Source: Gammaproteobacteria bacterium
GTDB taxonomy: Bacteria; Pseudomonadota; Gammaproteobacteria; Steroidobacterales; GCA-2729495
NCBI GenBank assembly: GCA_030426355.1
Contig: JAUHYQ010000002.1
Span: 310,001-374,000 of the forward strand
DNA length: 64,000 bases
Reading direction: 5' to 3'
Under the pieces are notes generated by a model that was not told the DNA's origin, did not search any database, and saw only the letters and a list, made by a program, of their open reading frames with translations. The position numbers and the translations under genes are program-made. Shown piece by piece: positions 13,411 to 29,306 of this stretch (its first letter is position 1; every line of letters starts with the position of its first letter).

Positions 13411-13446
13411 GTTTGCTATGCTGCGCTAGCGCTTTGGGAAAAGTCT
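13411..13446 (+). promoter_or_regulatory. Promoter-like block shared by island units (copy 0)
   Basis: The block contains TATGCT at 13417-13422 and CGCTTTGGGA just downstream, matching the blocks ahead of the genes at 14514 and 19649. TTGAGT at 13393-13398 lies 18 bases before TATGCT and would serve as a -35 box. This copy has no tRNA-Pro fragment upstream of it. Confidence 0.5.
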
Positions 13447-13448
13447 AA

Positions 13449-14201
13449 ATGAGAAAAACAATAGTACTTGCGCTTTTATTGACCTTGTCCTCGGTTAATG
13501 CCGACGATCTTGAATGCGACGGATGCGTTCACGCTGAAGATATCCGCGGTCAGGCCGTTACCACTCAGAAGCTCAGAAAAGGAGCGGTTACCGAGGGCAA
13601 GCTGGCGCCCGAGGTTCAGCGCAAATTAAATGGACTGGTGGTGACCGACGGAGTGGGGCGAAAGCTGCCCATAGAGTTGGGCTATGTCGGTTCGGATATG
13701 GCTCAGGGCTACTACCGACTGGACGATGGCGGCATTGTGCCCATTAGTATTTCACGGTGGTTGCCGGATCAGCCTCATCAGATTTTTGGGGTTCCCTGGC
13801 CAGGTTACTCAGCAATTACGCCTGGTTACCCACCGGGGCCAGCCATATTTTTTACCGGCGCGGGTTGTACCGGCAGACCTTTCATGGCGAGCTACTTTGA
13901 TCAAATCGCACGCCCTCTATTTCCATTGATTTTGATGGTTGATCCGGCGGCTCCTAACCGATCCAGGCTGGTGTTTCGCATTGGCGAACGAGTGAATGAG
14001 CAATTAGACGCGGTGTCGCGTCTGGATAGTTACTACGGGTGTACCGAAATCGATCCTGACAGCCCTTATCCGTATTTGTCGGACAACGATATTGCGCGAA
14101 TTCAGTACGGTAATGGGGCCCTTCTTGAGCCTGAGTTTATTGATATAACTCTGGTAACCTCGTTCGCCTGGATTCCACCACTGACCATCTCGACACAGTA
14201 A
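13449..14201 (+). CDS. Secreted protein with a GAVTxxKLAP motif (paralogue A)
   Basis: A 250-residue exported protein. After a signal peptide (MRKTIVLALLLTLSSVNA) the mature N-terminus has a CDGCVH cysteine pair and the repeat-like phrase QAVTTQKLRKGAVTEGKLAP, a pattern also seen in phage tail-fibre and surface-fibre stalks. The remainder has paired cysteines (GCTG, YGCTEI) and no recognised domain. The gene at 14514 is a full-length paralogue with the same start region and cysteine placement. It is the only gene of what looks like a left-truncated island unit. Confidence 0.7.
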   Translation: MRKTIVLALLLTLSSVNADDLECDGCVHAEDIRGQAVTTQKLRKGAVTEGKLAPEVQRKLNGLVVTDGVGRKLPIELGYVGSDMAQGYYRLDDGGIVPISISRWLPDQPHQIFGVPWPGYSAITPGYPPGPAIFFTGAGCTGRPFMASYFDQIARPLFPLILMVDPAAPNRSRLVFRIGERVNEQLDAVSRLDSYYGCTEIDPDSPYPYLSDNDIARIQYGNGALLEPEFIDITLVTSFAWIPPLTISTQ

Positions 14202-14254: not shown

Positions 14255-14329
14255 TGTGACCTCACCGTGACCACAGCAATCTGCCAGACACACCAAACCA
14301 GCATTCAAAGCCTAAGTATCTGAACAGAT
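14255..14329 (+). repeat. Unit right-end repeat, copy 1
   Basis: About 75 bases beginning TGTGACCTCACCGTGACCAC and ending CCTAAGTATCTGAA, directly abutting a tRNA-Pro fragment. The same sequence stands at 29155-29229 next to the intact tRNA-Pro, and a shortened copy is at 27776-27830. Confidence 0.8.
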
Positions 14330-14374
14330 TGATCGGGGTGAGAGGATTTGAACCTCCGGCCCCTGCCTCCCGAA
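14330..14374 (-). repeat. tRNA-Pro(CGG) 3'-half fragment (att-like), copy 1
   Basis: It is identical to the tRNA-Pro gene at 29230-29306 from the anticodon loop (TTCGGG) to the discriminator base, except that the CCA end reads TCA. The 5' half is absent, so it cannot be a functional tRNA. A break in the anticodon loop with the 3' half kept is the usual geometry of tyrosine-recombinase attachment sites at tRNA genes. Confidence 0.85.
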
Positions 14375-14512
14375 ACCGTTCAACACCTGAGGAGCCTTAC
14401 CCGAACAGGGTGTCAGAGCCGCTGGATCGATACTTTCCACGCCGGCGAGTGAGCGTGCTGTGACTGGAATATTCCGTTTGGTATGCTATTCAGGCGCTTT
14501 GGGAGGGCGCCT
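14375..14512 (+). promoter_or_regulatory. Shared unit leader and promoter-like block (copy 1)
   Basis: The first ~100 bases after the tRNA fragment match those at 19392-19495, including GAGGAGCCTTACCCGAACAG and a small ACCC..GGGT hairpin. Further on, TTTGGTATGCT (14477-14487) and GGCGCTTTGGGAGGGCGCC (14493-14511) form the block common to all three first genes; the latter is an inverted repeat. The coding start follows at 14514. Confidence 0.65.
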
Positions 14513-14513
14513 A

Positions 14514-15167
14514 ATGAGAACAGCAATATTCTTGATGCTTCTTGCTGCGGCTTCCGCCATTGTCGCCGACGACCTTCAGTGCAACGGCTGTGTGCATACC
14601 GATGATATTCGCAATCAGGCGGTAACGACGCAAAAGATCCAGAAGGGTGCAGTCACCGAGGGCAAGCTTGCGCCCAAAGTTCTTCACAAAATGAAACGGC
14701 CGATAGTGAGAGACGGCGTGGGACGGGAGTTGCCGTTTTATGTGCTTGAAGTGTCCGGCCAGTTCTCTAACTTTGGCGTTGGCGGCTTGTATACCCTTGA
14801 TACTGGAGAAGTATTTCCGCTGATCGTTACGGGCAGTGACTTTTCGTTGCAGAGTCATCTGTCTTGGGTATATTTCGATGGGCCGGATTGCACTGGCAAC
14901 GGGTTCTTCGGTCCTCAAGTTAATGAAAGCACTCTGTATAAGGCAGGTATCATTCGGGACCCTCTGCCGTCACGGCGTTCATTCAGGGTATATCGCCTAG
15001 GGCAGCAAGTGGCGGTTACGCCAACGCTTTTGTCAGTGGTGCAAAACGGCAGTGAATGCGTTGAAATTATTTCGGTGTTATTTCCAGGGTACTGGGTAAA
15101 TGTGTTTGAGGCGGTCAAAGGTGAGCTTATAAAGTGGCAGCCACCCTATAGGGTTGAAGTGCCGTGA
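14514..15167 (+). CDS. Secreted protein with a GAVTxxKLAP motif (paralogue B)
   Basis: A 217-residue exported protein. The signal peptide is about residues 1-18, then DDLQCNGCVH and QAVTTQKIQKGAVTEGKLAP, nearly the same as paralogue A at 13449. C-terminal halves align more loosely but keep a DCTGNGFF-type cysteine turn and a late ECVEI. The start at 14514 is chosen over 14460 because it opens the signal peptide and matches the paralogue. An attC-like site follows its stop, so it is the first cassette-like gene of unit 1. Confidence 0.7.
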   Translation: MRTAIFLMLLAAASAIVADDLQCNGCVHTDDIRNQAVTTQKIQKGAVTEGKLAPKVLHKMKRPIVRDGVGRELPFYVLEVSGQFSNFGVGGLYTLDTGEVFPLIVTGSDFSLQSHLSWVYFDGPDCTGNGFFGPQVNESTLYKAGIIRDPLPSRRSFRVYRLGQQVAVTPTLLSVVQNGSECVEIISVLFPGYWVNVFEAVKGELIKWQPPYRVEVP

Positions 15168-15238
15168 TTGCGCAAACCGCTCCCTTCGGTCTCCGGACGC
15201 CTGGCTTCCCCAGCCACTTGTGCCTAGGGCGTTATATG
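15160..15238 (+). other. attC-like recombination site 1
   Basis: The right half is TGCCTAGGGCGTTAT (15221-15235), the same core as sites 5 and 6. The centre holds the CTGG/CCAG stem typical of this set. The left half is degenerate and lacks the TAACCAGTTGGGGCA consensus. Confidence 0.6.
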
Positions 15239-15967
15239 GCAACCAAATTGTTGGTAATTTCAAGCATTGCGCTGGGCATTCTAGGTTGTACAACCACAAA
15301 ACCCATGGTTCCGCGGGCTGCACCAGAGATCCCATTGGCGACTCAACCAGAAAAGTGCCGCAACTTCCCAAGTCCGTGGTACCCAGACGCTGCCGAGGCT
15401 GTGAGGCAGGAAGGTTGGGTGCACATAGAATATGGGGTAACCGCTAGCGATCGAGTTGTGAACGCAACAATTGTTGACTCAAGCCCGCAAGGAGTTTTTG
15501 AGGCAGCGGTACTTAAAGCTATCGAATTGAGCAACGAGGGCAAGCCAGAGGCTGATGCGATTCCCGTGGTCTCTGGCTGTCAACTAGCTGTCCGATTTCG
15601 GCTTGTAGAGCCTCAATTGAAGTATGCAAGTGATTTGGCTAAGTATGAAGAGTCTCAGAAGAACTGGCGGCCTACCTTCAGGGCCCAGCCATTCTATCCA
15701 CGGCAAGAAATGGAACGAGGACGAGTTGGCTGCGTAATGGTGGGCCGCTATGTAGGTTCAGATGGGCGCGTTATGGATATAGAAGTCATAAAGCAGTGGC
15801 CGAAGTCGACGCACTTTGCCAAGGCTGCAATAAAAGCTGTTGCACAGTTTCATTTTGAACCGATCAATGCAAATAGATCGCCTTCGTGGGATGCTCACAC
15901 TATTACCTTTGGTATAGATGGAATAAAGCCGGCTGGGGAGGATCTCAGTGCGAAGTGCGCCATATAA
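15236..15967 (+). CDS. Cassette lipoprotein with two TonB-C-like domains
   Basis: A 243-residue lipoprotein; the lipobox is LGILGC. Two segments resemble the TonB C-terminal fold: WYPDAAEAVRQEGWVHIEYGV at about residue 46, then PFYPRQEMERGRVGCVMVGRY near residue 155, each followed by a strand and helix pattern ending in an F..P phrase. TonB-C domains contact outer-membrane proteins; without a transmembrane helix this is not a TonB energiser. The start sits three bases into the end of attC site 1. The stop TAA is supplied by the left end of attC site 2. Confidence 0.65.
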   Translation: MATKLLVISSIALGILGCTTTKPMVPRAAPEIPLATQPEKCRNFPSPWYPDAAEAVRQEGWVHIEYGVTASDRVVNATIVDSSPQGVFEAAVLKAIELSNEGKPEADAIPVVSGCQLAVRFRLVEPQLKYASDLAKYEESQKNWRPTFRAQPFYPRQEMERGRVGCVMVGRYVGSDGRVMDIEVIKQWPKSTHFAKAAIKAVAQFHFEPINANRSPSWDAHTITFGIDGIKPAGEDLSAKCAI

Positions 15968-16042
15968 CCAGTTGGGGCAAAGGGCTCGCTTCGCGAGCGA
16001 GACGTCTGGCTTCGCTAGCCGTCCCAGCTCAAGGCGTTAGAT
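15962..16042 (+). other. attC-like recombination site 2
   Basis: The left half is TAACCAGTTGGGGCA (15965-15979) and the right core is GGCGTTAGAT, in which GTTAGAT fits GTTRRRY exactly. The centre has GCTCGCTTCGCGAGC and CTGGCTTCGCTAG hairpins. The preceding gene's stop codon is the first TAA of this site. Confidence 0.8.
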
Positions 16043-16048
16043 GGCATT

Positions 16049-16423
16049 ATGAAGCGACCAGGTGGATTCACGTTTCTGTCCCTTGTTATGGGCTGGCTGG
16101 CGATCGCCGGTCTCGCAAACGGGGGCTTGATGGTCAGCGGCTCTTTTGGCCAACTTCCCATTGTTTTAGGAATTCTAGCTGTCGGCTATGGTATCGCAGC
16201 GGGGTTCAGTGCGATTTTCCTTTGGCGCTTTATGGAATCTGCCATTGCTGCGCTTCGTAGTTGGATGGCAATATGTCTTCTCTTCATGATTACATTCGCA
16301 TATAGCTTCAGCAGCATGTTCATGGGTGCCGAAATCGGTTTGGCTGGTTTCCTACTAGTTACAGGTATTCTTTTCTTCCTTTTGGATAGATATGTGCGCG
16401 GGAAGTTTGATGTTGCCCCCTAA
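16049..16423 (+). CDS. Cassette-encoded small membrane protein
   Basis: A 124-residue protein with about four hydrophobic helices (residues 8-27, 34-57, 70-92, 97-113) and short loops. No family is recognised. It begins seven bases after attC site 2, and its stop codon lies in attC site 3, so the reading frame fills the whole cassette. Confidence 0.65.
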   Translation: MKRPGGFTFLSLVMGWLAIAGLANGGLMVSGSFGQLPIVLGILAVGYGIAAGFSAIFLWRFMESAIAALRSWMAICLLFMITFAYSFSSMFMGAEIGLAGFLLVTGILFFLLDRYVRGKFDVAP

Positions 16424-16497
16424 CAAGTTGGGGCAAACCACTCGCTGTGCTCGTTGGACGCCATGCTTCGCGTGCTGCCTGTGCCGGGGGTATTAAG
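16417..16497 (+). other. attC-like recombination site 3
   Basis: The left half TAACAAGTTGGGGCA (16421-16435) differs from the consensus by one base. The right core TATTAAGC is degenerate. The centre again forms hairpins (CATGCTTCGCGTG). Confidence 0.7.
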
Positions 16498-16507
16498 CAG
16501 GCCTATT

Positions 16508-17269
16508 ATGGAAACCCTGCTTCAGCCAGAGACAAAATACCCTCGCCTATACAGCGAGTGGCAGGTTGGGTTCAGCGTAGTGCTTGCCGGACCACTTGCC
16601 GGTGGCTGGCTTCTTCGACGTAACTTTCAGGAGTTGGGCGAAACCACAAGGGCACGAAACGCTCTTATCGCATCTCTGGCAATCACAGTCGCCCTTGCTT
16701 TACTGCCACTGCCGACCGACGTATCGCCAAATATCGTCTCGATACCAATAGCACTCGGCTTTCTGTTCGCATACAAAAAGCTTATGGGCTCTCGTTACGA
16801 GGATGAACTGGAAAGAGGCGGTGTGAAGCAGGGCTTCTGGAAAACGTTCGGGGTCGCGGTCTTCAGTATTCCATTCACAGTCGCGATTGTTATTTTCGTG
16901 ATGCTGCTGATACCGGTTCCGCCTATAAACAATGTTAGGTATGAGAACAATTTTATTTACTACGAGCAAAACGCAAAGCGAGAAGACGCTGAAGCGCTTG
17001 CCAATATGCTACGAAGACTCGATGTCCTCAGCGCCCAATCAGAATGGGCGATTACACTCTCTTTCCCTCGCTTTGCTCCGGACAGAGTGATTATCGAATT
17101 TCCCGTTGCCGAAGCGCCTGAGAAGAACAGCGAGATGGATCAAGCATTCAAATTTCTTCAGGGCAACCTAGCTTCTACGTTATATTCTGACAAGAGCGAA
17201 GTATGGATATCGCTAACAGATCCGTTTGGGTTTCATCTGGTGCGTATACCGAATGACGATTCGGCTTAA
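16508..17269 (+). CDS. Cassette-encoded membrane protein of unknown function
   Basis: A 253-residue protein. Hydrophobic helices lie at about residues 20-37, 55-72, 74-90 and 117-140, followed by a soluble C-terminal domain of about 110 residues. The start at 16508 (METLLQPE) is preferred to 16454, which lies inside attC site 3. No family is recognised. Confidence 0.6.
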   Translation: METLLQPETKYPRLYSEWQVGFSVVLAGPLAGGWLLRRNFQELGETTRARNALIASLAITVALALLPLPTDVSPNIVSIPIALGFLFAYKKLMGSRYEDELERGGVKQGFWKTFGVAVFSIPFTVAIVIFVMLLIPVPPINNVRYENNFIYYEQNAKREDAEALANMLRRLDVLSAQSEWAITLSFPRFAPDRVIIEFPVAEAPEKNSEMDQAFKFLQGNLASTLYSDKSEVWISLTDPFGFHLVRIPNDDSA

Positions 17270-17341
17270 TCAGCTCGGGCATTTGCTCGCTGACTTTCGC
17301 CGGATGCCCGACTCACTCTGCCGCCAACTAGGGCATTAGTT
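17265..17341 (+). other. attC-like recombination site 4
   Basis: TTAATCAGCTCGGGCA on the left and CTAGGGCATTAGTT on the right are diverged forms of the conserved halves, at the expected ~75 base spacing between neighbouring genes. Confidence 0.6.
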
Positions 17342-17345
17342 TTTT

Positions 17346-19277
17346 ATGATCCGCTTGCCAGTACTTGTTGCGTTAATGCTCATGGTTGGTCGCAGCTCTG
17401 CTGAGCCGCTGTCTGTAGATTCAGTTCTGCATATTTCGGACCTGCGTCAAGTCACCATTTCAATGGATGGAAGCAAGTTGGCCATGATCCGTCGCGTTGA
17501 TAAAGATGATTATTCTTTGTTGGTGTTGGATGTTGATCAAGATTACAAGGTCCTTCAGTTGTTGCAGGAGAATTCAAGTGATAAGTTGCTCGAAGTAACC
17601 TGGCTCAGTGAAGATCGATTTGCATTGGCAATTCAGAAGTCAAAGATGCTGGGCTGGGGCCGTGCCCGCTACAATCGGCTGGCCATTATGAATGCCGATG
17701 GTAGCGGGGCTGTCGGTGCGCTCACAAATCATCCGGGCATTCGCAACAATAACGACCTTACGCAGATCGCAAGTGTGCTTTGGGGCAAGCCGGACTCTAT
17801 ATTGCTATTTGCCAACGATCCGTATCTGAGTTTGTATAAAGTCGATATTGAATCGGGCGATGCGGAGAGGGTTGTAGAGGGCAGAAGAAATACAGTTTAT
17901 TGGTCCGTTGATGACAACGGTAACCCAATACTTCGTTTTGATTACGATACCGCCTCGGGAGACATTCAGGTTTTCGCGCAGGAGGCGGGTGCTAGTGAGT
18001 GGAAAAAAATTGTTGATCGAAACTCCACTGATGAGGAAATCGAAGCTGCACTATTGGGCGGATCCGGCGAAGATGAAGAAATACTAATGCTGCATAGAAA
18101 GGACGATGATGATTATTATTCTCTTTATCAGTATGACCCGGTAAACGATAGTTTTGGCGAGAAAATATTTGCGGTAGACGGTCTGGATCTTGTTGAGGTA
18201 ATAAAAACGGGTGTAACCGGCACTGTAATAGGGGTCAAGTATGTCGACGACTATGTTCGTTACCATTACTTTTCCGAAGGCCTGCAGGCGGTGCAAGCGC
18301 AGCTAGAGAATATTTTCCCGATGTCGGAGGTGGCTCTGCTCGATGCATCGGAATGGTTGGATCGTTTTCTGGTATTGGTGAGTAATTCGAAGCATCCGGG
18401 GGTCTACTATTTGTATGACCGCTGGACAGAGAAAGCGACAAGATTAGGTGAGCTCATCCCCGGTTTGGAGGAGGCGACGACTACCGTTACCGAGAGGATT
18501 TCCTATGAATCTATAGACGGATTGACGATTCATGGCTACCTGACATACCCCAATCAAGCGGATGTGTCGTCACTACCATTAATTGTTCATCCTCATGATG
18601 GGCCTGCAAGAAGGGACTCAGCCGATTTCGATCCGTTTGTTCAGTTCTGGGCGAGCCGAGGCTATGTGGTTTTTCAACCAAATTTTCGCGGTTCGGTTGG
18701 CTATGGAAAAAGTTTTCGCGAGGCCGGTCGCCGGCAGTGGGGGCTGGGCATGGTGTCTGACATAGCCGCAGGTGTTCACGCAATAGGCACCGCCAGAAAG
18801 GCAGATATCTCGCGTGTGTGTGCCGTTGGGGTTGGATTTGGCGGCTATATATCATTAATGCTGGAGGCCTCGACCAACCTTCTGGATTGCGTTGTAAGTA
18901 TTGATGCCTATACCGATTTGCCTGGCTGGTTAGAGAGTCGCATTAGCAACGCTAGTCAAGAGAACATTGATCGAATTCGTGAGAGTACAGCCGAGTTGGT
19001 TGGCGACTACGAGAGAGACCGGGATTTTTTGCGCAGCCAGTCCCCCATCTATCTTGTCGATAAGTTCTCGGCCCCGGTGCTGCTTATGCATAGGGATTCA
19101 AATACCTATGTTCCGGAACGTCATAGTAAGCAGCTGCATAAAGCCCTCAGGAAGGCGGGTGTCGATAGCGAATATCAGAAAATCAAAACCAGCAGGTTAA
19201 AGAATCGACCGCTGAAGCCCGCGGAAATCGTATTGAAGAAAACCGAAAAGTTTTTTGCTCGACATTTGACGAAATAG
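17346..19277 (+). CDS. S9 prolyl-oligopeptidase-family protein lacking the catalytic triad
   Basis: A 643-residue exported protein (signal peptide about residues 1-19). Residues 20-390 form a propeller-like region and residues 400-640 an alpha/beta-hydrolase domain with S9 signatures (HPHDGPARRDS, FQPNFRGSVGYGKSF). The nucleophile elbow reads GVGFGG, with glycine 497 where serine belongs. The acid position in HRDSNTYVP is asparagine 586, and no GH(G) histidine motif occurs in the C-terminal stretch. It should therefore not be a peptidase, though it may bind peptides. It is the last gene of unit 1 and starts just after attC site 4. Confidence 0.8.
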   Translation: MIRLPVLVALMLMVGRSSAEPLSVDSVLHISDLRQVTISMDGSKLAMIRRVDKDDYSLLVLDVDQDYKVLQLLQENSSDKLLEVTWLSEDRFALAIQKSKMLGWGRARYNRLAIMNADGSGAVGALTNHPGIRNNNDLTQIASVLWGKPDSILLFANDPYLSLYKVDIESGDAERVVEGRRNTVYWSVDDNGNPILRFDYDTASGDIQVFAQEAGASEWKKIVDRNSTDEEIEAALLGGSGEDEEILMLHRKDDDDYYSLYQYDPVNDSFGEKIFAVDGLDLVEVIKTGVTGTVIGVKYVDDYVRYHYFSEGLQAVQAQLENIFPMSEVALLDASEWLDRFLVLVSNSKHPGVYYLYDRWTEKATRLGELIPGLEEATTTVTERISYESIDGLTIHGYLTYPNQADVSSLPLIVHPHDGPARRDSADFDPFVQFWASRGYVVFQPNFRGSVGYGKSFREAGRRQWGLGMVSDIAAGVHAIGTARKADISRVCAVGVGFGGYISLMLEASTNLLDCVVSIDAYTDLPGWLESRISNASQENIDRIRESTAELVGDYERDRDFLRSQSPIYLVDKFSAPVLLMHRDSNTYVPERHSKQLHKALRKAGVDSEYQKIKTSRLKNRPLKPAEIVLKKTEKFFARHLTK

Positions 19278-19325
19278 CGGGCTCAAGGAAAGAAAAATCA
19301 TCGAAGCCATGAACCCGACATGCAC

Positions 19326-19346
19326 GCCCTAAGCATTTGAAAATAT
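19326..19346 (+). repeat. Short remnant of the unit right-end repeat
   Basis: CCCTAAGCATTTGAAAATAT precedes the tRNA fragment and matches the last ~20 bases of the repeats ending at 14329 and 29229. The first 50 bases of that repeat are missing or unrecognisable here. Confidence 0.55.
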
Positions 19347-19391
19347 TGGTCGGGGTGAGAGGATTTGAACCTCCGGCCCCTGCCTCCCGAA
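19347..19391 (-). repeat. tRNA-Pro(CGG) 3'-half fragment (att-like), copy 2
   Basis: It is identical to the intact tRNA-Pro over about 45 bases, from the anticodon loop through the encoded CCA. The 5' half is replaced by the unit leader. Copy 1 and this copy share the sequence that replaces the 5' half, which argues for a repeated insertion product and against chance decay of a tRNA. Confidence 0.88.
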
Positions 19392-19609
19392 ACCGTTTAA
19401 CACCGGAGGAGCCTTACCCGAACAGGGTGTCAGGGTTGCGGGGTCGATGATTTGCTCTCCGGTGAGTGACCGTGCCGCGACCGGAGTCCTAGAGAAATAC
19501 GTGTTCCGTGATGGGGGTTGGTGCCAATAGTTTTTGGCGGGAGAAAAGCCCTTATGTGTAAACAGAAAGGGCTGTTTGGTATGCTGATCGGGCGTTTTGG
19601 GGGGGCGTC
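19392..19609 (+). promoter_or_regulatory. Shared unit leader and promoter-like block (copy 2)
   Basis: The sequence after the tRNA fragment matches the leader at 14375, including GAGGAGCCTTACCCGAACAG. Further on, TGTTTGGTATGCT (19573-19585) and GGGCGTTTTGGGGGGGCGTC reproduce the promoter-like block. The first gene starts 39 bases later, further away than in the other copies, behind an AAGGGGGG ribosome-binding site. Confidence 0.6.
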
Positions 19610-19648
19610 ATAAAGAAGTGTGACGCTAGGCTTTGTAAGGGGGGTGTT

Positions 19649-20548
19649 ATGGGTAGAGTGCTGAAAGCGTGCGCGCTTTTCTTGACGCGTTTTGTCTGCG
19701 CAATTTTCCTGTCGGTCGCGGTTGTTTTGGCCGCTATGAGTGCAGCGACTGTCATGGGTCTTGCGGGCGGGCTTGGTGTTTTTAAACTTTCGGCTTTGGG
19801 CGGAAGCATAATGCTTGTTATTTTCCTCGTCTGCTTTGCGTCAAAAAACACAAAGCGCACACGAGCGTTGGTGGCGCTGAAAACTATAGGGGTTTGTGTC
19901 GCTCTTGTTGTTGTTTGGTGGATTCTCGATCCGCCCCGTGCCTTACCCAATGATCCCGAGCAAGCAGCAGCCCTAATGGTTGGCGAATTTGGTGGTTCGA
20001 GCATGCTTGCTTCTATGCTGATCTATTCGGCTGCTCTGATCCTGCCTATCTTGTGGTTGCCGTCTCTGTCAATCAGAGGCAAGACCCCGGTGCCGAACGG
20101 GCTTTATAGATTCGAGAAGTTCATGATTGGTTATGGTGTCTTTATGATGGCATTTGGATATTTTACTTTTGACACCATAATGCAGGGGTTTTTTCGAGGC
20201 TCACCTCTAATGACAGAAGAGATGCTCATGCGAATGCCTGTCTCGCCTCTATATAGCTTTGTCTTTAGTGCTATATTTTTCGTGGTGTCAGTTGCGGCTC
20301 TCACACGCATTCGTTTAATAATCATGCGTCCGTTTTTCTTGATTTGGGCGATCCTTATGGTTCCCGGAACACTTATAAATTTTGTCGTCTTGGCCATTCC
20401 AGCATGGATGGTTGTGGTGAATATATTGAGCGTCGCTTTCTTGATCTACTGCGTATATCTGCTCTACCGTCCGGAAATAGGAACGTGGGTAAGAGAGGCG
20501 AAGGCAGAGTTTGAGGCTAATCGTATCAGCGCTACGCCGGTGTCTTGA
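19649..20548 (+). CDS. Multi-pass membrane protein, first gene of unit 2
   Basis: A 299-residue protein with seven or eight hydrophobic helices (about residues 10-38, 46-63, 72-90, 117-135, 157-180, 200-222, 228-250, 252-272) and a charged C-terminal tail. I do not recognise a family. The ATG follows a strong AAGGGGGGTGTT ribosome-binding site. Its upstream leader is homologous to those of the paralogue A and B genes although the protein is unrelated, so first genes appear to have been exchanged behind a constant leader. Confidence 0.65.
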   Translation: MGRVLKACALFLTRFVCAIFLSVAVVLAAMSAATVMGLAGGLGVFKLSALGGSIMLVIFLVCFASKNTKRTRALVALKTIGVCVALVVVWWILDPPRALPNDPEQAAALMVGEFGGSSMLASMLIYSAALILPILWLPSLSIRGKTPVPNGLYRFEKFMIGYGVFMMAFGYFTFDTIMQGFFRGSPLMTEEMLMRMPVSPLYSFVFSAIFFVVSVAALTRIRLIIMRPFFLIWAILMVPGTLINFVVLAIPAWMVVVNILSVAFLIYCVYLLYRPEIGTWVREAKAEFEANRISATPVS

Positions 20549-20549
20549 G

Positions 20550-20628
20550 TTGATGTGGAAGGCCTATGCTAGGCGTGCTGGGCGCAGATACTCGATTTCG
20601 CGTTCCGCCTGTGCCTAGGGCGTTAAAC
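20550..20628 (+). other. attC-like recombination site 5
   Basis: The right half TGCCTAGGGCGTTAA (20612-20626) is identical to that of site 6, and GTTAAAC fits GTTRRRY. The left half is diverged and has no AAC core. Confidence 0.65.
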
Positions 20629-20632
20629 AGTC

Positions 20633-21304
20633 ATGCGCCAACCCGTATTTGCTCTTAGTCTGGGACTTGGCCTTCTCGGCTGTACTGCGCCAGCTAATAT
20701 GGAATTGTTGGGAGAACCCATCTATACCGTGGGCGACTCGGAAGTAAGGCGAGAAGACTTCGTGGTGTATGGAAGGCTACTGAAGGAAGTTCTTGTTGCG
20801 CCAACCGATGTTTATGCCAGTTCGTTCGGTCACGCATACTGCATGGCTGAAGAAGTAACTTATGAGATCAAACACTATATTCAAGGTAGCGGCCCGCCGA
20901 TTATCGAGTTTACCCAGAACCTGGTTGATTACTGCACGCCTTTGGCTGAGGAGATCGGATTTGAGGAGTCAATCCTGTTCTTCTCGAAAAATAAGTGGCG
21001 AGGTATATGGTCGACTGGGACGGCAAGGATTTTTAAAGACGATGGTCAACGGCGTATAGTTTTGCCAGCTGATATTGAGAGGTTTTCCAGCCTCGATAAC
21101 TTTAAGCTATTACTAAGTGACTATGACGAACCGGTAGAAATAGCCTTTTCGAGACAACTTGAGGCATGGAAATTTAGTGAATCCCTTAAGGAGCTCGGCG
21201 TGATTAGTGAAAGGCCCAGCCAGAATGAGGAAGACAAAGACTTTCTATTGTTGAACCTGCATAAGTATATTGATCTTGAAGATCTGCTACGAAATAACTT
21301 CTAA
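20633..21304 (+). CDS. Cassette lipoprotein of unknown function
   Basis: A 223-residue protein with a lipobox (GLGLLGC) at about residue 17. The mature part is acidic, with four scattered cysteines, and matches no family I know. It starts a few bases after attC site 5. Its TAA stop is part of attC site 6. Confidence 0.6.
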   Translation: MRQPVFALSLGLGLLGCTAPANMELLGEPIYTVGDSEVRREDFVVYGRLLKEVLVAPTDVYASSFGHAYCMAEEVTYEIKHYIQGSGPPIIEFTQNLVDYCTPLAEEIGFEESILFFSKNKWRGIWSTGTARIFKDDGQRRIVLPADIERFSSLDNFKLLLSDYDEPVEIAFSRQLEAWKFSESLKELGVISERPSQNEEDKDFLLLNLHKYIDLEDLLRNNF

Positions 21305-21379
21305 CCAGTTGGGGCATTACGCACGCTTCGCGTGCCGGACGTCTGGATTCGCCAGCCGCCCGTGCCTAGGGCGTTAAGT
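21299..21379 (+). other. attC-like recombination site 6
   Basis: The best-preserved site: left TAACCAGTTGGGGCA (21302-21316), right TGCCTAGGGCGTTAA (21363-21377), GTTAAGT fitting GTTRRRY, and central hairpins GCACGCTTCGCGTGC and CTGGATTCGCCAG. The length of ~80 bases is normal for attC. Confidence 0.85.
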
Positions 21380-21383
21380 GGCA

Positions 21384-21974
21384 ATGCAACTTCAGAACTT
21401 CGGACATCTGCTCTGCCTTATTTTTCTAGTCGGGTGCAATCACGATGGGGGATCCGAGAACTCCGAAGAACCTGCGCCATTTTCCGTGGGTTCTGTGAGA
21501 TCGACTGATCTAACCTATCTGCCGCTCGATGAGAAGTTCAATAGCTGGCTCATCTCCACCGTCGGCCAATCGCAGCAAATAATGCTCAAGGTCAAGGAAG
21601 AGCTGAACCCGGGCGGCTTCAATGATCTGGCATTGTGGGCGATGGCCGTTCGCAAAACTATCGACCAAGGCGGGACTGTTTTCTACGATGAGGCTGAAAT
21701 TAAGATTTTCCCCAACTACATCCCACGAGATGATATTTGTTGTGTCAATAGCAGGCCGTTCAGTGACTTCGATAACGCTGATGCCGCATACGTTGCCGTA
21801 GGCGGTTTTATTAACTTTACTGGAAGTAACAAGCAGGCATCCTTTGATCTGGATTTTCAGAAGGAGACCTCTGTTGGAAGCGGGGTTCTCGAAGGGCCAA
21901 TCGTGAAGGTTGAAGGTTGTTGGAGTATAGCCGGCGAAGGGGGCGTATCGGGGTGCGAAATCGGTCAGTTCTAG
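21384..21974 (+). CDS. Cassette lipoprotein of unknown function
   Basis: A 196-residue protein with lipobox LIFLVGC about 18 residues from ATG 21384 (a GTG two codons upstream is possible). The mature region is acidic and contains an ICC pair and a late CWS..GC motif. No family is recognised. It occupies the cassette between attC sites 6 and 7. Confidence 0.6.
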   Translation: MQLQNFGHLLCLIFLVGCNHDGGSENSEEPAPFSVGSVRSTDLTYLPLDEKFNSWLISTVGQSQQIMLKVKEELNPGGFNDLALWAMAVRKTIDQGGTVFYDEAEIKIFPNYIPRDDICCVNSRPFSDFDNADAAYVAVGGFINFTGSNKQASFDLDFQKETSVGSGVLEGPIVKVEGCWSIAGEGGVSGCEIGQF

Positions 21975-21978
21975 AGCC

Positions 21979-22060
21979 ACCTAACCAGTTGGGGCATTTC
22001 GCTTGCTCCGTTCGCCGGATGTCTGACTTCGCTGGTTGGCTGCGCCTAGCACGCGTCTTG
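21979..22060 (+). other. attC-like recombination site 7
   Basis: The left half TAACCAGTTGGGGCA (21982-21996) is perfect and is preceded by ACC, giving the core ACCTAAC. The right half TGCGCCTAGCACGCGTCTTG is degenerate and may no longer recombine. Confidence 0.7.
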
Positions 22061-22735
22061 ATGCGTCTGCTGTTCGGGGCGATGGCACTGTTGCTGTTTT
22101 CGCCCGCGAACGTTCTCGCTGCGGAAGTGGATGTTTACCGTTGGACAGACGAGTCCGGGCAGGTTCATTTCAGCGATCAAAAGCCCGCTGACACTGAAGC
22201 CAACAAGGTCGTGGTTGAATCAAAACAGCGATTCACCGAAGACATCAATGCCCAGCTTGATAGAACGGCGAAGTCCGAGTTTTACGCTGAACGGCGTGCC
22301 GACCGTCGGCGGTTAAAGAAAGAATCACGAGAAAGGGCGGAGCGGCTCGAGTGGCAGAGCAAAGAATCCGATTGCATGCGATCGCGACGCCGATACTACG
22401 TTGTTACTGAGCAAATGCCGATATACGTCGATGAGGTGGGAGAGTATCGCGTAGGGTGGGGAAATGATCCGTATACGGGCGCACGTAAATGGGTACCCGA
22501 CAGAGACAGAGATGCTGTTGCCGAAAGCGTGTGGAAGGAGATCGAACAGTTTTGCCGGGAGCCGGACGATCCTGAGGCGCAAGAGGAAGCGATTTGGCGT
22601 CAGGACGTGGATGAAACTTGCGATATTGAAACCGCATTTCTAAAAGAATTGAGCCAAGAGAGTGCCAAGAACACAGAGGAAAGGATAGAGCGTCAACGCC
22701 TGCTTGCAGAGTCTGTTTGCGCGTTGAAGCCGTAA
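22061..22735 (+). CDS. DUF4124-domain exported protein
   Basis: A 224-residue protein. A signal peptide of about 20 residues (MRLLFGAMALLLFSPANVLA) is followed by a DUF4124 domain (VYRWTDESGQVHFSDQKP), common in gammaproteobacterial envelope proteins. The remainder is a charged helical region (residues 60-105) and an acidic tail with four cysteines. The start at 22061 is preferred to 21917 because it opens the signal peptide directly after attC site 7. No attC site is recognisable after its stop, so it appears to end the cassette array. Confidence 0.75.
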   Translation: MRLLFGAMALLLFSPANVLAAEVDVYRWTDESGQVHFSDQKPADTEANKVVVESKQRFTEDINAQLDRTAKSEFYAERRADRRRLKKESRERAERLEWQSKESDCMRSRRRYYVVTEQMPIYVDEVGEYRVGWGNDPYTGARKWVPDRDRDAVAESVWKEIEQFCREPDDPEAQEEAIWRQDVDETCDIETAFLKELSQESAKNTEERIERQRLLAESVCALKP

Positions 22736-23350: not shown

Positions 23351-26300
23351 ATGCGCCATACAGGGTCGCGACACCAAATCTTAAAGCCACATTTTTTGGC
23401 GCTAATTGGTTGTGTATTATTTCTGCAGTCCCCAATGGGGTTTTCCGCATCTGATCAGCAAGTCGGTGCCGAAGGTACTTTCGGCGCGAACGGAATCGCT
23501 GGTGATCCCGGAACATCTGGCCTCGACGGCGGCAGTGGCGGTGATGCCAGTGCATCATCAAGCACGGTCAATACAGACGCCAACAACACCGCTGATGCTG
23601 ATGGTGGCGATGGCGGCTTCGGCGGCAATGGCGGAATCGGCAGTCCGGCCGGCGCTGACGGTGGCGACGGCGGCGATGCGGGTAACGGTGGTGATGCGAC
23701 AGCGACGGCTAGCACCGAGGTGTTAGCTGGCAGTGCTGTCAGCAACGCGAGTGCCAACGGTGGCAACGGTGGCTTCGGAGGCACGGGTGGTAGTGCAATC
23801 GGTGGGGGGGTCAGCGGTACTGGTGGCACTGGTGGAAAGGGCGGTGATGGAACTGCGCTCAGCACAACTATTTCTAACACTTTGGGCGGCGAAGCTGCTG
23901 TCGCCTATGCGGGCGGTCGTGGGGGAACTGGCGGCCGTTCCAATTTTGGCACTAGCGGTGCCGGCGGCGACGCGTCTGCAACTGCTACCGCAGATGCAAT
24001 CGATAACTCGGTGGTTGGCGCCCAGGCAACGGCCTATGGGGGCAACGGGGGGTATTCGAGCGTTGCTAACGGTGCTGCGGGTGGCAGTGCCGTGGCCGTC
24101 GCGACCGGATCTAATAACGGTACCAAGCAAGTCAACATTGATGCGCATGCTTACGGCGGCAATGGCGGTACAGCGACCGGCGCAGGCTTTCGAGGTGGCG
24201 ACGGCGGGTTGGCGACGGCCACCGCCTCAGGCAGTTCAGCGTTGTCATACGAACTTGATGTATTTGCGTCGATAACCGGCGGCAATGGTGGCTACGGTAG
24301 CGCCGGTGCAAATGGCGGCGACGGCGCGAACGCAATTATGAACAACGCCGTATCCGCTACCGGGAACAGTTATCGCCTTGTCCAGCAGGCCAGCGCCGGC
24401 GACGGCGGAAGTAGCCAGGGTGGTATTGCAGGCGTCGGTGGTTCTGCGTCGTCCATCCTTAACGTCAATAGTCAGGATAGTTTTGTTGATATTTACCTCG
24501 GCGCCTATGGCGGTGACGGCGGCACCAGTTTTAACTCGGGCAACGACGGGCAAGATGGCGCCGCAGGTTTTGTATCCGGAACGGTCGTCGCCAGCGACAG
24601 GGCAGATCTGGATGCCACCGTCCAAGGCGGAAGAGGCGGCGCCAGTTCGGACGGTAATGCTGGTAATGGCGGTGCAGCACAGACCGGTGTGCTAAGCGCA
24701 AGTGCAGAAAATATATATATGGAGTTGCGGTCGCTCGGCGGCCACGGCGGAGATGCGGGAGGAATTGGTGATGGCGGTAACGGTGCAGATGTGCTGCTCG
24801 ATAACGCTATTACAGGTAGCGCAACCGACACTCTCTTCTTGACGCAGTCTGCTGAGGCCGGCGACGGAGGTGATACAGAGGCAGGTGTTGCCGGGAGGGG
24901 CGGTAATGGGTTCAGTCGACTCGCTGTCACAGGTAGTTTCTCCCAACTTCGTCTGAATACAGATGCACACGGTGGCCATGGCGGTGACGCCAGGGGCGCT
25001 GGTGCAAAAGCATCTGTGGGAGGCACTGCCAGTGCGGTTAGTGATGCGGAGAATTCCGCAGGCGGTGCGTTTGCTTTTGCAGACGCCTGGGCCAGCGGCG
25101 CTAGCGGGGTCAACACTGGGGCCAATGGGATTGCCGGCAGTGACGCAAGCACTGACGCTCGAGCAGAAGCATCTGGCGGAACAGGTCCGGCGAGGGCCGG
25201 CGCGAGGGCCTATGGCGGTTACGGTGGCGGCGGGCAGGTTACTGGAGGTATGGGCGGTAATGGCACTGCCAGTGCAATTGCACTGGGATCCGGTGCAGAC
25301 TTTGCCGAAGCCAACGCGTTCGCCATCGGCGGCGGCGGCGGCGAAACTTATACGGGAACAGGTGGGGTCGGCGGCAACGGCGTTGCATACGCACGCGCTG
25401 AAAACAGTGGCAGCGCGGCAGTTACAGCAATAGCCGAAGCACGCGGTGGTGAGGATATACATGCAACTGCTGCTATACCAACAACCGGCGGTAACGCGGC
25501 CGCTTCGGCTGAGGGGATATCGACAGGTGACGGGCATGTTCAGGTAACCGCAATTCAGATCGGCGGTTCAGCGGGCGAGGATCGTTACGGCATTCCTAGC
25601 TCCGTGGCCGGCACATCCACAACAATTAGTGATGCTGTCACCGGCTCGACGTCCGGTTTGCTTGAATTAACGCAATCTGCAGTCGGTGGCAACGGTTCGG
25701 AGACTTCCGATGCGCAGGCTGGGGCTGGTGGTATAGCAACCTCAAGCCTGACTCACACTGATGCTGGCGCCAGCGAGGTTCGCGCAGTGACTAACGCGAC
25801 AGGTGGTGCCGGAGGCGATTCATTCAGTGGGGTGCCAAGTTCCATTGGCGGTGTCGGTGGCAATGCCTACGCTACGACGAGTCTTGTGACCAGTGGAATC
25901 GCGGTGGCCAGAGGCAACGCAATTGGTGGCGATGGCGGGGCATATACAAATAATCCTGGTGTCGGTGGGGATGGCGGCGACGCCAGCTCAAATGTTGTCT
26001 CAACGAGCACCGGGGGAATCGCACGTGCTTATAGCAGCGCGATTGGCGGTGATGGTTATTCGTCGGCACTGGACGGCGCGGCTACTTCGTCGGCTAGTGC
26101 TTTCGCCGAGAATAGTAATCAGGCTTATGCCAATGCGACGGCTAGAGGTTTAAGCGGATCTGCCACCGCACAGGCAACCACGAACGGTGGTGTTGTTCGA
26201 AGCGTTTCCGCGAGGGCAAGCGCGTCGATTCCTGCGGGCGTTGCTAACATGCCTACTGCTAACGCTACGGCGCAGGCTGTTGTTGATGGTTTCGTGACCC

Positions 26301-26875
26301 AGAATTTTCAAGGCAGCCAAGCGCTTGCCAGTGCCTCGCCGCCCGATGGGTTGTTAGATTTTGTAGCGGGCCAAAACTCTGGTTTCGCTGCAACACGAGA
26401 ACAAATTGGCGAGTCCATATTGCACGGATTTCTTGGCGCGTCGCAGCCCAATCAGGGTTTAGGTGCAAGTGAAATTTTCTTCGGTGAAGTGAACCTGAGT
26501 ATAGAGCGAATTAGCGCGGCAGATGAGCTTTTGCTACTTAGTTTGTATGACCCCCGCCTATTTGGCAGCGGTTTTGAAAGCATGGAGTTCTCGGTATTTC
26601 AGGAAGGTGTCGAAATTCTTGATCTACAGTTTAGTGATGCCAGCACAGCCTTCGCCTTTTTCGACGACAATACACTGGAGCTTGGGATGCTAAATACCGG
26701 GCTCGATGATGTGCTCGATCTGCGAATTGAAATGCAGACGAAGATTTTGGGCGCGAATGATGGCTTCTTCAGTAATTTCATAGTTAGCACGACAGTTGTG
26801 CCATTGCCGCCCGCGATATGGATGATGTTTTCAGCTCTGGCAATGCTGGGGGCTTTTCGTCCCAGACCTTCATAG
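23351..26875 (+). CDS. Giant Gly-rich PEP-CTERM surface protein
   Basis: A 1174-residue exported protein. The signal peptide is about residues 1-34. Residues 40 to about 950 are Gly/Ala/Ser-rich with GGxGG units every 15-30 residues (GGDGGFGGNGG and similar), superficially like mycobacterial PE-PGRS. A longer motif recurs at about residues 332, 484 and 761 (NAVSATG.., NAITGSATDTLFLTQSA, DAVTGSTSGLLELTQSA). A compact non-repetitive domain occupies about 985-1145. The C-terminus VPLPPAIWMMFSALAML plus basic tail is a PEP-CTERM sorting signal, so anchoring or release by an exosortase is expected. A CAGGGAG ribosome-binding site lies ten bases before the ATG. Confidence 0.8.
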   Translation: MRHTGSRHQILKPHFLALIGCVLFLQSPMGFSASDQQVGAEGTFGANGIAGDPGTSGLDGGSGGDASASSSTVNTDANNTADADGGDGGFGGNGGIGSPAGADGGDGGDAGNGGDATATASTEVLAGSAVSNASANGGNGGFGGTGGSAIGGGVSGTGGTGGKGGDGTALSTTISNTLGGEAAVAYAGGRGGTGGRSNFGTSGAGGDASATATADAIDNSVVGAQATAYGGNGGYSSVANGAAGGSAVAVATGSNNGTKQVNIDAHAYGGNGGTATGAGFRGGDGGLATATASGSSALSYELDVFASITGGNGGYGSAGANGGDGANAIMNNAVSATGNSYRLVQQASAGDGGSSQGGIAGVGGSASSILNVNSQDSFVDIYLGAYGGDGGTSFNSGNDGQDGAAGFVSGTVVASDRADLDATVQGGRGGASSDGNAGNGGAAQTGVLSASAENIYMELRSLGGHGGDAGGIGDGGNGADVLLDNAITGSATDTLFLTQSAEAGDGGDTEAGVAGRGGNGFSRLAVTGSFSQLRLNTDAHGGHGGDARGAGAKASVGGTASAVSDAENSAGGAFAFADAWASGASGVNTGANGIAGSDASTDARAEASGGTGPARAGARAYGGYGGGGQVTGGMGGNGTASAIALGSGADFAEANAFAIGGGGGETYTGTGGVGGNGVAYARAENSGSAAVTAIAEARGGEDIHATAAIPTTGGNAAASAEGISTGDGHVQVTAIQIGGSAGEDRYGIPSSVAGTSTTISDAVTGSTSGLLELTQSAVGGNGSETSDAQAGAGGIATSSLTHTDAGASEVRAVTNATGGAGGDSFSGVPSSIGGVGGNAYATTSLVTSGIAVARGNAIGGDGGAYTNNPGVGGDGGDASSNVVSTSTGGIARAYSSAIGGDGYSSALDGAATSSASAFAENSNQAYANATARGLSGSATAQATTNGGVVRSVSARASASIPAGVANMPTANATAQAVVDGFVTQNFQGSQALASASPPDGLLDFVAGQNSGFAATREQIGESILHGFLGASQPNQGLGASEIFFGEVNLSIERISAADELLLLSLYDPRLFGSGFESMEFSVFQEGVEILDLQFSDASTAFAFFDDNTLELGMLNTGLDDVLDLRIEMQTKILGANDGFFSNFIVSTTVVPLPPAIWMMFSALAMLGAFRPRPS

Positions 26876-27064
26876 GAGCAAACAGGTCCGTCTAAGCATC
26901 GTTCTAAACTAATAAAACTGTCGTCTAACGGTAGGACCTCATTCAAATTACTGAGGCTTCAATTTATGTCGACTAGCAATTTGTCCGATTACGACAAGCC
27001 TAGATTGAGCCTATGGAATTCAACTGCTACGGTGGGCTTGCGCAACAATAGGGAGGCACAGATT

Positions 27065-27717
27065 GTGCGAATTTCAGCGACGGTGAGTTTTTGTAGTCTT
27101 ATTCTCATCGTCCAATGCAGCGACTATTGACTTTGAGTCATTACAGACGCAATCAGTCGGCATCATTTATAACGGTGTCGCCTATAGCGAGGATGGCATA
27201 GTTGTGTCATCTTCTGGAGGTGTTTGGGCAGCGGAGGAAGGCTGGCAATCAGGGAGAGGCAGTAGCAACGGTACGACCACTGCGATCTTCTTGAACAATC
27301 GAAATGATGCAACGCCCGCCGTTTTTGATGCCAATCTAGTCAGTGGAGAAAACTTCTCTTTGGAGGCTGTTGATTTAGGGGAGACTTTGCAAAATGGGGG
27401 ACTTTGCGTTTGCGGTTGCAGCACAGCAGATTGATGTGACCGGGTTTTTAGCCGGTGGCGGAATAGTCTCCACTACGTTGTATCTGGATTTACTTGCAGA
27501 TGGTCAGGGTGGCGTTGATGATTTCCAAACATTTGTTTTTGGCTCTGAGTGGACCTATCTCGAGTCGGTGGAATTCGTAGCTACAGGGCCGGCCAATATC
27601 TACGGCACTCGATTCGCTGTCGACAATTTGGTGTTGAACGTTGTGCCAATACCAGCAGCGGTCTATCTATTTGGTTCCGCTCTTCTAGGCCTCAGCTGGA
27701 TGCGAAGGAAAGCGTAG
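27065..27717 (+). pseudogene. PEP-CTERM protein gene with two frameshifts
   Basis: The start GTG has a GGGAGG ribosome-binding site eight bases upstream and opens a signal peptide (VRISATVSFCSLILI) that runs into a stop at 27128. A one-base frame change near 27108 restores SSSNAATIDFESLQ, the usual mature start of these proteins. A second change in a G-run near 27405 joins ETLQNG to GDFAFAVAAQQIDVTG. The gene ends with the sorting signal PAAVYLFGSALLGLSWMRR. Either it is a recent pseudogene or the assembly contains two errors. Confidence 0.75.
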
Positions 27718-27740
27718 CTTCGTCAGAAACGATTCAAGAG

Positions 27741-27766
27741 ACCCCGCTCCGAGCGGTGTTTTCTTT
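27741..27766 (+). terminator. Rho-independent terminator
   Basis: Stem CCGCT/AGCGG with loop CCG, followed by GTTTTCTTT, 24 bases after the frameshifted PEP-CTERM gene. Confidence 0.65.
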
Positions 27767-27775
27767 ATCCGATAC

Positions 27776-27830
27776 TGTGACCTCACCGTGACCACAGCAA
27801 TCTGCCAGACACACCAAACCAGCATTTGAA
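27776..27830 (+). repeat. Unit right-end repeat, truncated copy
   Basis: It starts TGTGACCTCACCGTGACCAC and matches the copy at 14255 almost exactly for about 52 bases, then diverges after AGCATTTGAAG. It lacks the final bases and the tRNA fragment, so it marks a possible former unit boundary inside unit 2. Confidence 0.75.
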
Positions 27831-28002
27831 GATCGCTGAGGTTCTAAACGACAGGCGCATACCAACGCCCTGGGAGGTCGATGGCATATGAGTCAGGTGA
27901 GACGAGTCCAAGAACGACCAACGGTATTATGACAAGGCCGAATTGAGGCCCCTAGTCTGGATTTGCTACGCTGTATTTGACCGTTCACCCGGGAGGTTTT
28001 TC
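27831..28002 (+). other. Upstream region of the HAF-repeat gene
   Basis: No gene is present. TTTGCTACGCTG at 27962-27973 resembles the TTTGCTATGCTG block of unit leader copy 0, so a weak version of the shared promoter may be present. The GGGAGG ribosome-binding site for the next gene is at 27991-27996. Confidence 0.35.
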
Positions 28003-29046
28003 GTGCATAAATTGCTGTCTTTGATTTTCCTTATCGGGTATTCGATCAGCGCCTATTCTGCGGGCATCACTGCCATCGGGTTTGTTATGAGTGATGGCTC
28101 AACCGTAAGTAGTGCAAGGCCGGTCGCTGTCTCAAATGGAGGCGTAGTAGCCGTTCGGACTGCGGATAATGTTGTCGGCTACAACTCGGCAATGTGGACG
28201 CAGTCGGGCGGATTGGAGATATTTCTGACGCCCAGTTATACCAACTACGGTCCCAATGACATCTCAAGCGACGGGTCTACGATTGTTGGGCGTGGAAGAT
28301 ACCCAAACACGCAAGGATACAGTTGGAGAAACGGTTCCGGGACGACGATATTGACCGGCCTTAGAAGCTCTCCACACGCTGTTTCGGCTGACGGAAGCGT
28401 AGTAGCAGGAACTGTCGGGGGCGAGGCAGCGATCTGGGTAAATGGTGTCGAGCAAACTATCGGCTTCCTTCCTGGAGGTGATCAAAGTCATGGGCATCTT
28501 ATTTCTGCAGATGGGTCAGTCGTTGCTGGAACGGGCAGAGCCGCTGGAGGCGTATTTACCACATTCGTGTGGACAGCCGCTAACGGAATGATCGACTTGA
28601 ATCTTGGGCCGGGTATTGGGAGTCACACTGTTTCCGGCATGTCTTCCGACGGGTCAATGATTGTTGGGGGAGTGGGTAACATCCCGTATCTCTGGACAAA
28701 CGGAGTGTCTGCTCCGTTGGGTTTCCAAGGTGGAGTGGACGGCATGTCTGGAGACGGCTCAATGATCGTGGGGAAGACTAACGACGGGGTAATCCTGTGG
28801 ACACAGGAAGATGGAGCTGTTTTGTTAGCAGACTACCTAACTGCCAACGGTGCCGACTTGACGGGTTGGAATCTCATGAACATCTACGACATTTCTGAAA
28901 ACGGTCAGTGGGTCGTGGGTGATGGGAACTATAACGGCATCAGGCAGGGGTTCATTGCCAGTTTGACAGTAGTGCCAGTTCCCGCAGCCGTCTACCTATT
29001 CGGCTCAGCTCTCCTCGGACTTGGCTGGATGCGTCGAAGAGCTTGA
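28003..29046 (+). CDS. HAF-repeat PEP-CTERM exported protein
   Basis: A 347-residue secreted protein. GTG 28003 is chosen because it lies six bases after GGGAGG and opens a signal peptide (VHKLLSLIFLIGYSISAYSA). The body is a series of about six HAF-type repeats with the phrase (I/M)S(A/S)DGSxIVG followed by a tryptophan strand (AIWVNG, FVWTAANG, YLWTNG), predicted to form a beta-propeller. It ends PAAVYLFGSALLGLGWMRRR, a PEP-CTERM sorting signal. A terminator follows. Confidence 0.85.
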   Translation: MHKLLSLIFLIGYSISAYSAGITAIGFVMSDGSTVSSARPVAVSNGGVVAVRTADNVVGYNSAMWTQSGGLEIFLTPSYTNYGPNDISSDGSTIVGRGRYPNTQGYSWRNGSGTTILTGLRSSPHAVSADGSVVAGTVGGEAAIWVNGVEQTIGFLPGGDQSHGHLISADGSVVAGTGRAAGGVFTTFVWTAANGMIDLNLGPGIGSHTVSGMSSDGSMIVGGVGNIPYLWTNGVSAPLGFQGGVDGMSGDGSMIVGKTNDGVILWTQEDGAVLLADYLTANGADLTGWNLMNIYDISENGQWVVGDGNYNGIRQGFIASLTVVPVPAAVYLFGSALLGLGWMRRRA

Positions 29047-29229: not shown

Positions 29230-29306
29230 TGGTCGGGGTGAGAGGATTTGAACCTCCGGCCCCTGCCTCCCGAAGACAGTGCTCTACCAGGCTGAGCTAC
29301 ACCCCG
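29230..29306 (-). tRNA. tRNA-Pro (anticodon CGG)
   Basis: A complete 77-base cloverleaf with encoded CCA. Acceptor CGGGGTG pairs with CACCCCG, the D arm is TAGCTCAGCCTGGTAGAGCA, the anticodon stem CTGTC/GGCAG holds loop TTCGGGA, and the T arm has loop TTCAAAT. The anticodon CGG reads CCG. Its 3' half is duplicated twice to the left and appears to be the insertion target of the island. Confidence 0.97.

Follow-up and report, generated by a model that had tools for sequence, protein, structure and literature searches.

A probable integration hot spot at tRNA-Pro(CGG) with two headless integron cassette runs in a gammaproteobacterial genome

We analyzed a 64,000-nucleotide stretch (the window; G000:C5:310001-374000) of a gammaproteobacterial genome (2.82 Mb in 11 contigs), in which gene cassettes separated by integron recombination sites (attC) lie between partial copies of a tRNA-Pro(CGG) gene. 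The locus is likely an integration hot spot at this tRNA gene, with at least two old tandem scars and two headless cassette runs (clusters of attC sites lacking integron-integrases [CALINs]) of the genome's chromosomal integron family. A first-pass annotation had described two recombination logics side by side, and both are present in the window, as repeats starting in the tRNA anticodon loop and as integron attC sites. The order that it reported, tRNA half, leader, first gene, and attC-separated cassettes, indeed occurs twice (units 1 and 2). Its proposal of a defined class of composite elements was not supported, as no other genome was found in which a half and the leader are combined with attC. 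The two recombination systems most likely meet here because islands collect cassettes, not as one machine.

The tRNA-Pro(CGG) gene and its displaced 3′ halves

The intact tRNA-Pro(CGG) gene, the integration target, is encoded on the reverse strand at 29230-29306 (ARAGORN; Rfam RF00005, 62.7 bits). Two copies of its last 45 nt were identified by blastn on the same strand and to the left of the intact gene, one at 19347-19391 (45/45 identical) and the other at 14330-14374 (44/45 identical). Both halves begin at the anticodon loop, at tRNA position 33. The range initially annotated (14330-22060) starts exactly at the outer of these copies, and the right boundary of unit 2 is the intact tRNA at 29230, beyond that range. 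A third copy of the tRNA 3′ flank, which carries no tRNA piece, is found on the forward strand at 27776-27826 (51 bp, 100% identical to 14255-14305) and is probably a further scar.

Such repeats are not restricted to tRNA-Pro. Within 36 kb, 7 of the 42 tRNA genes examined have copies of their own 3′ ends (Arg-ACG, Met, Glu-CTC, Leu-TAA [twice], Arg-CCT, Leu-CAG [twice], and Pro-CGG [twice]), and the repeats at the other six start at tRNA positions 29 to 34, Leu-CAG excepted (57 to 64). As far as the contigs extend, tRNA-Pro 3′ pieces are also present in eight other genomes of the order, and in genome G013 a tyrosine recombinase is encoded near a tRNA-Pro half, so that tRNA-Pro appears to be a common target among relatives. 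The tRNA-Pro matches of the relatives are located near ispB, with a left neighbor that cannot be joined across contigs.

These features are consistent with a scenario in which an element with a tyrosine recombinase used tRNA-Pro as its target, with the anticodon loop as the point of exchange. The tRNA gene would have been rebuilt each time, leaving behind the displaced 3′ half and a junction arm (the leader discussed below), and this would have happened at least twice; the anatomy of the exchange is visible in the window, while the enzyme is one that we infer. A PF00589 search of the island (C5:323-340 kb) gave no match and thus no tyrosine recombinase; serine integrases were not searched. Only four PF00589 loci exist genome-wide, none of them in the island, and the tRNA-Glu island is the only one of this genome in which an integrase was seen near a half.

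Cassette runs of the window

The sole integron integrase of the genome (TIGR02249, 411 bits) is encoded at the end of contig C3, followed by attI and at least one attC before the contig ends. More arrays of the same sequence family were identified at the starts of contigs C6 and C7 and at the end of C7. Contigs C3, C6, and C7 break off inside attC arrays.

A covariance model of attC (R3) was built from 21 sites on contigs C6 and C7 only, with zero window sequence. It was used instead of a model from the integron arrays of relatives (R1), which is too distant for this genus and yielded only two window matches at E ≤ 10, both at proposed sites and each with an E value of ~0.3. R3 recovered six of the seven proposed attC sites, with scores from 86.3 to 20.5 bits (E 9e-23 to 0.003), and missed the one at 20545. 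Two other window matches of R3, at 61425 (E 0.002) and 30457 (E 0.34), were taken as chance; the first scores slightly higher than the weakest accepted attC site. Identity between each window site and the nearest attC of the main array (C3 end, C6 start, and C7 start) ranges from 60.9 to 90.1%. Judged by sequence similarity, the window arrays belong to one attC family with the other arrays of the genome and are mostly decayed.

The spacing of genes and sites also follows a cassette grammar, as read from the sequence. Six of the seven open reading frames running into a site stop within its first bases and the seventh stops 5 nt before it, and in every case the next reading frame starts at most ~10 nt from the site end. 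When the seven sites were folded as single strands, most showed no clear hairpin pattern. The arrays agree with the definition of a CALIN in having two or more attC in series (six of the seven by R3) and no integron-integrase beside them, TIGR02249 being above its cut-off on contig C3 only. A tblastn search of the window found no intI fragment, and attI profiles had no match at 13.3, 14.4, and 19.5 kb; the locus is therefore not a complete integron with intI and an attI head.

All leaders, genes, and attC sites of both units, and the D6 repeat of unit 1, are on the forward strand. Behind the outer tRNA half, unit 1 continues with its leader (14375-14467; repeat D2), a short repeat (D6, 14476-14509), and a first gene for a predicted secreted protein (14514-15167; judged by eye, no Pfam match). 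A decayed attC (15157-15237, R3 44.6 bits) precedes a cassette gene with a TonB C-terminal domain (15236-15967; PF03544, E 4e-22), which is followed by a well-preserved attC (15962-16042, 84.2 bits) that is 90.1% identical to the nearest main-array attC. Two cassette genes without Pfam matches come next, one for a small hydrophobic protein (16049-16423) with its attC at 16418-16498 (60.5 bits), and one for a hydrophobic protein (16508-17269) with a strongly decayed attC at 17264-17341 (20.5 bits, E 0.003). The last gene of the unit (17346-19277) encodes a member of the S9 prolyl-oligopeptidase family (PF00326, E 9e-25) and has no attC behind it.

Unit 2 has its leader at 19392-19484 and a first gene for a hydrophobic protein at 19649-20548. 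The attC remnant behind this gene (20545-20628) was recognized in an alignment (A1) by a 3′ part like that of its neighbors; it is 60.9% identical to the nearest main-array attC and has no R3 match. It is followed by a cassette gene at 20633-21304, the best-preserved attC of the window (21299-21379, 86.3 bits), another cassette gene (21378-21974), and an attC with a broken 3′ core (21979-22062, 31.5 bits). None of these three genes has a Pfam match. The last cassette-like gene of unit 2 (22061-22735; DUF4124, PF13511, E 2e-10) has no attC behind it. The remainder of the island (23351-29046) is occupied by three genes whose translations have PEP-CTERM-like ends by eye, and a similar PEP-CTERM-like end is present in the island of genome G002.

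Most likely, the cassettes either reached the locus through IntI working in trans or came with the island, in both cases behind a head that is now lost; the family membership is observed and the enzyme is presumed. Both arrays are probably immobile, given that most of the window attC are decayed and that neither array has a detectable attI-like head.

The leader and the origin of the repeated order

The leaders of the two units agree at 76 of 93 ungapped positions. With 17 mismatches over these 93 positions, the leaders differ more than the near-identical tRNA halves, which may mean that the halves were kept alike through exchange with the working tRNA gene or that two elements already differed at entry. 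A leader model (R2), which scores the window copies at 94.3 (unit 1) and 96.7 bits (unit 2), was run on 296 genomes of the order and matched in only two of them, the second being that of a sister species (G003). There the leader adjoins a tRNA-Pro half, and the 16 kb fetched for this locus yielded no attC. When the genome_contigs collection was scanned for the exact pattern, a single record was returned, and phages, plasmids, and viral contigs gave no match. As it is found with a tRNA-Pro half, and without attC, in the sister species, the leader is best interpreted as a junction arm that belongs to a single type of element. In that species, half and leader are located near ispB (L062 7773-9921), and no full-length high-identity tRNA-Pro(CGG) is listed, as if the intact gene had been lost.

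Two other identities of the leader were considered. The reading as an attI site was rejected, since profiles made from three and from six sites missed both leaders (shuffle fractions, 0.14 to 0.73). As a diverged tRNA 5′ half, which would make the repeats whole pseudo-tRNAs, the window copies were no better than shuffles (0.68 and 0.53), and the copy of the sister species was only suggestive (0.0145). A related proposal is that the tRNA half or the leader served as a noncanonical attI at which IntI docked. The motif GTTYAAC, which presumably fits the integron core on either strand, does stand directly after the half in both units. However, by eye it is missing from the sister species copy and from the inner arms at the Arg and Met islands described below, chance alone would yield a 7-mer of this kind about once per kb per strand, and attI profiles have no match at the leaders, all of which makes docking at these sequences extremely improbable.

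The identical order in both units is also what a defined composite element would produce, that is, a single mobile unit that comprises the tRNA half, the leader, the first gene, and the attC cassettes and was inserted twice by one machinery. Two further tRNA islands of the genome, each without an integrase, lend this idea some substance by carrying attC arrays as well: the tRNA-Arg(ACG) island of contig C4 (L112 5277-10530) has three attC and a half 5.1 kb from the tRNA gene (45/45 identical), and the tRNA-Met island of contig C6 (L139 8356-18221) has eight attC and a half at a distance of 9.8 kb (93.6% identity over 47 nt). In a loose sense, these islands bear out in part the first-pass annotation, which named recurrence with different cassettes in unrelated strains as support for a defined element, but they differ from the window in their junctions, in array orientation (the Arg and Met arrays run away from the tRNA, those of the window toward it), and in an attI-like head that the window lacks; by eye, the Arg, Met, and window junction arms are unlike one another. 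Recurrence of leader and attC in unrelated strains was not observed, given the two leader-bearing genomes, the second without attC, and the single genome_contigs record. Neither R1 nor R3 found attC near the tRNA-Pro 3′ pieces of the eight other genomes. Among 20 integrase-less attC clusters from other genomes of the family, chosen as not beside a listed intI, none is bounded by tRNA halves and one has a tRNA gene in its stretch (Arg CCG, without a half and beside what looks by eye like an IS3-type transposase gene); this is a soft negative, as smaller clusters were not fetched and many stretches are cut by contig ends. We regard a composite element as very unlikely.

Local tandem duplication offers another account of the repeated order, with a single integration after which tRNA half, leader, and short repeat were duplicated; the cassettes behind them would then have diverged or been exchanged. 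It draws on the repeats D2 and D6, on the flank copy without tRNA at 27776, and on the sequence left of the outermost half, where D6 (13411-13444; a further copy is at 19574-19607) again stands upstream of a paralogue of the unit 1 first gene (together 13411-14201). The product of this paralogue (13449-14201), which is outside the island, is 36.9% identical to that of the unit 1 first gene. Between the units, however, the first genes and cassettes are unrelated (no blastp match at E 1e-3), the leader also occurs in the sister species, and two repeats at one tRNA gene are also seen at tRNA-Leu(TAA). A duplication origin thus appears unlikely.

Several observations weigh against repeated integration at tRNA-Pro with an independent gathering of cassettes, which we nevertheless favor. 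The order of leader and first gene occurs twice, and nothing known explains why arrays should begin directly after a junction arm. The lost enzyme is one that we infer, from a search that covered tyrosine recombinases and not serine integrases, and no empty site was found among the relatives, whose left neighbor is not joinable across contigs. Moreover, the genome has five internal integrase-less attC clusters (one on C4, the window on C5, one on C6, and two on C8), three of which lie between a tRNA gene and its own 3′ half (tRNA-Pro, tRNA-Arg[ACG], and tRNA-Met), although half-bounded islands make up only ~97.5 kb or 3.5% of the genome. The link between tRNA islands and cassettes exceeds plain chance, because the binomial P value is 4e-4 for three of five clusters and 0.007 for two of four without the window, in tests that are post hoc and treat the clusters as independent. 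At the C8 array near tRNA-Asn, no half was found within 25 kb, and no attC matched in the 400 kb of sequence, in 20 stretches, that lie downstream of other tRNA genes of this genome.

Orphan attI-like heads and known systems

A lead of possibly greater interest lies outside the window, namely the possibility that one integrase serves several dispersed docking sites. Five arrays, on C4, on C6, in both C8 clusters, and at the C7 end, are headed by an attI-like site without intI (L112 5564-5724, L139 13363-13531, L140 13725-13891, L113 6541-6698, and L142 8813-8972), and two of them are those at tRNA-Arg and tRNA-Met. The attI of C3 and the C4 site are 66.7% identical over 135 bp (E 1.6e-11), and the orphan sites are matched by an attI profile that was itself built with them; tblastn found no intI fragments near the five heads. 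The sites of C4, C6, and one C8 cluster (C8a) resemble one subfamily, and those of the C7 end and the other C8 cluster (C8b) another. C6 and C8a also have sequence in common farther upstream, where a PEP-CTERM gene is located on C6.

In the four headed arrays that could be scored, those of C4 and C6 and the two of C8, an attC resembles its nearest main-array attC less the farther it lies from the head (net decrease, 23 of 35 pairs; P 0.0035 by stratified permutation; for the Met array by itself, Spearman −0.74, P 0.037), and the window arrays have no such trend (P 0.50). The freshest attC nearest the head is expected if one IntI inserts repeatedly in trans at an orphan head; alternatively, heads and first cassettes could have been copied together. 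It is possible, though less likely than not, that this integron is decentralized, with the C3 integrase serving dispersed attI docking sites, some of them in the integrase-less Arg and Met islands, and with the window arrays being older ones that lost their head. A DNA search for the orphan attI in 40 genomes of the family found it in this genome only, and in genome G001 the attI profile gave a weak match (L143 7979-8026, E 0.047) ~390 bp before an attC. Among open-licence papers, none was found in which "integron" occurs together with "orphan attI" or "multiple attI sites". If a decentralized integron exists, part of the CALINs would be, instead of degraded integrons, arrays that have an attI-like head of their own and are kept stocked by an integrase encoded at a distance, and some headed arrays would be parked in tRNA islands that could move them between strains. 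The window would then display a possible look of a headed array after head loss and site decay, and it warns against taking two overlapping recombination systems for one element.

Islands integrated at tRNA genes by tyrosine recombinases have an intact tRNA at one end and a direct repeat of its 3′ half at the other, with the crossover in the anticodon loop, and may occur in tandem copies. The window shares with them the intact tRNA, the bounding 3′ half repeats (45/45 and 44/45), the anticodon-loop crossover, and the tandem copies, but its island is without an integrase gene among PF00589 matches, the family searched. Tycheposons and other tRNA-targeting islands have the tRNA target in common with the window, where no PF00589 recombinase was found. 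Compared with a sedentary chromosomal integron, the locus is without intI and attI, and its attC are of the same family as those of the genome's arrays.

CALINs are reported to match complete integrons roughly in frequency and have been proposed to represent degraded forms of them, and attI sites are described as poorly characterized outside class 1 (PMC9024848). Other work indicates that IntI acting in trans can excise or capture the cassettes of CALINs (PMC9668308, on archaeal integrons), that CALINs occur in Shewanella genomes with and without intI (PMC9229058), and that cassettes of mobile integrons contain partial attI sites (PMC12901181, from 2026). The window resembles CALINs in having at least two attC in series, cassette reading frames, and no intI within reach. 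It differs from them in that its arrays lie between tRNA 3′ halves with most attC decayed, and in that the same genome has five integrase-less arrays with an attI-like head.

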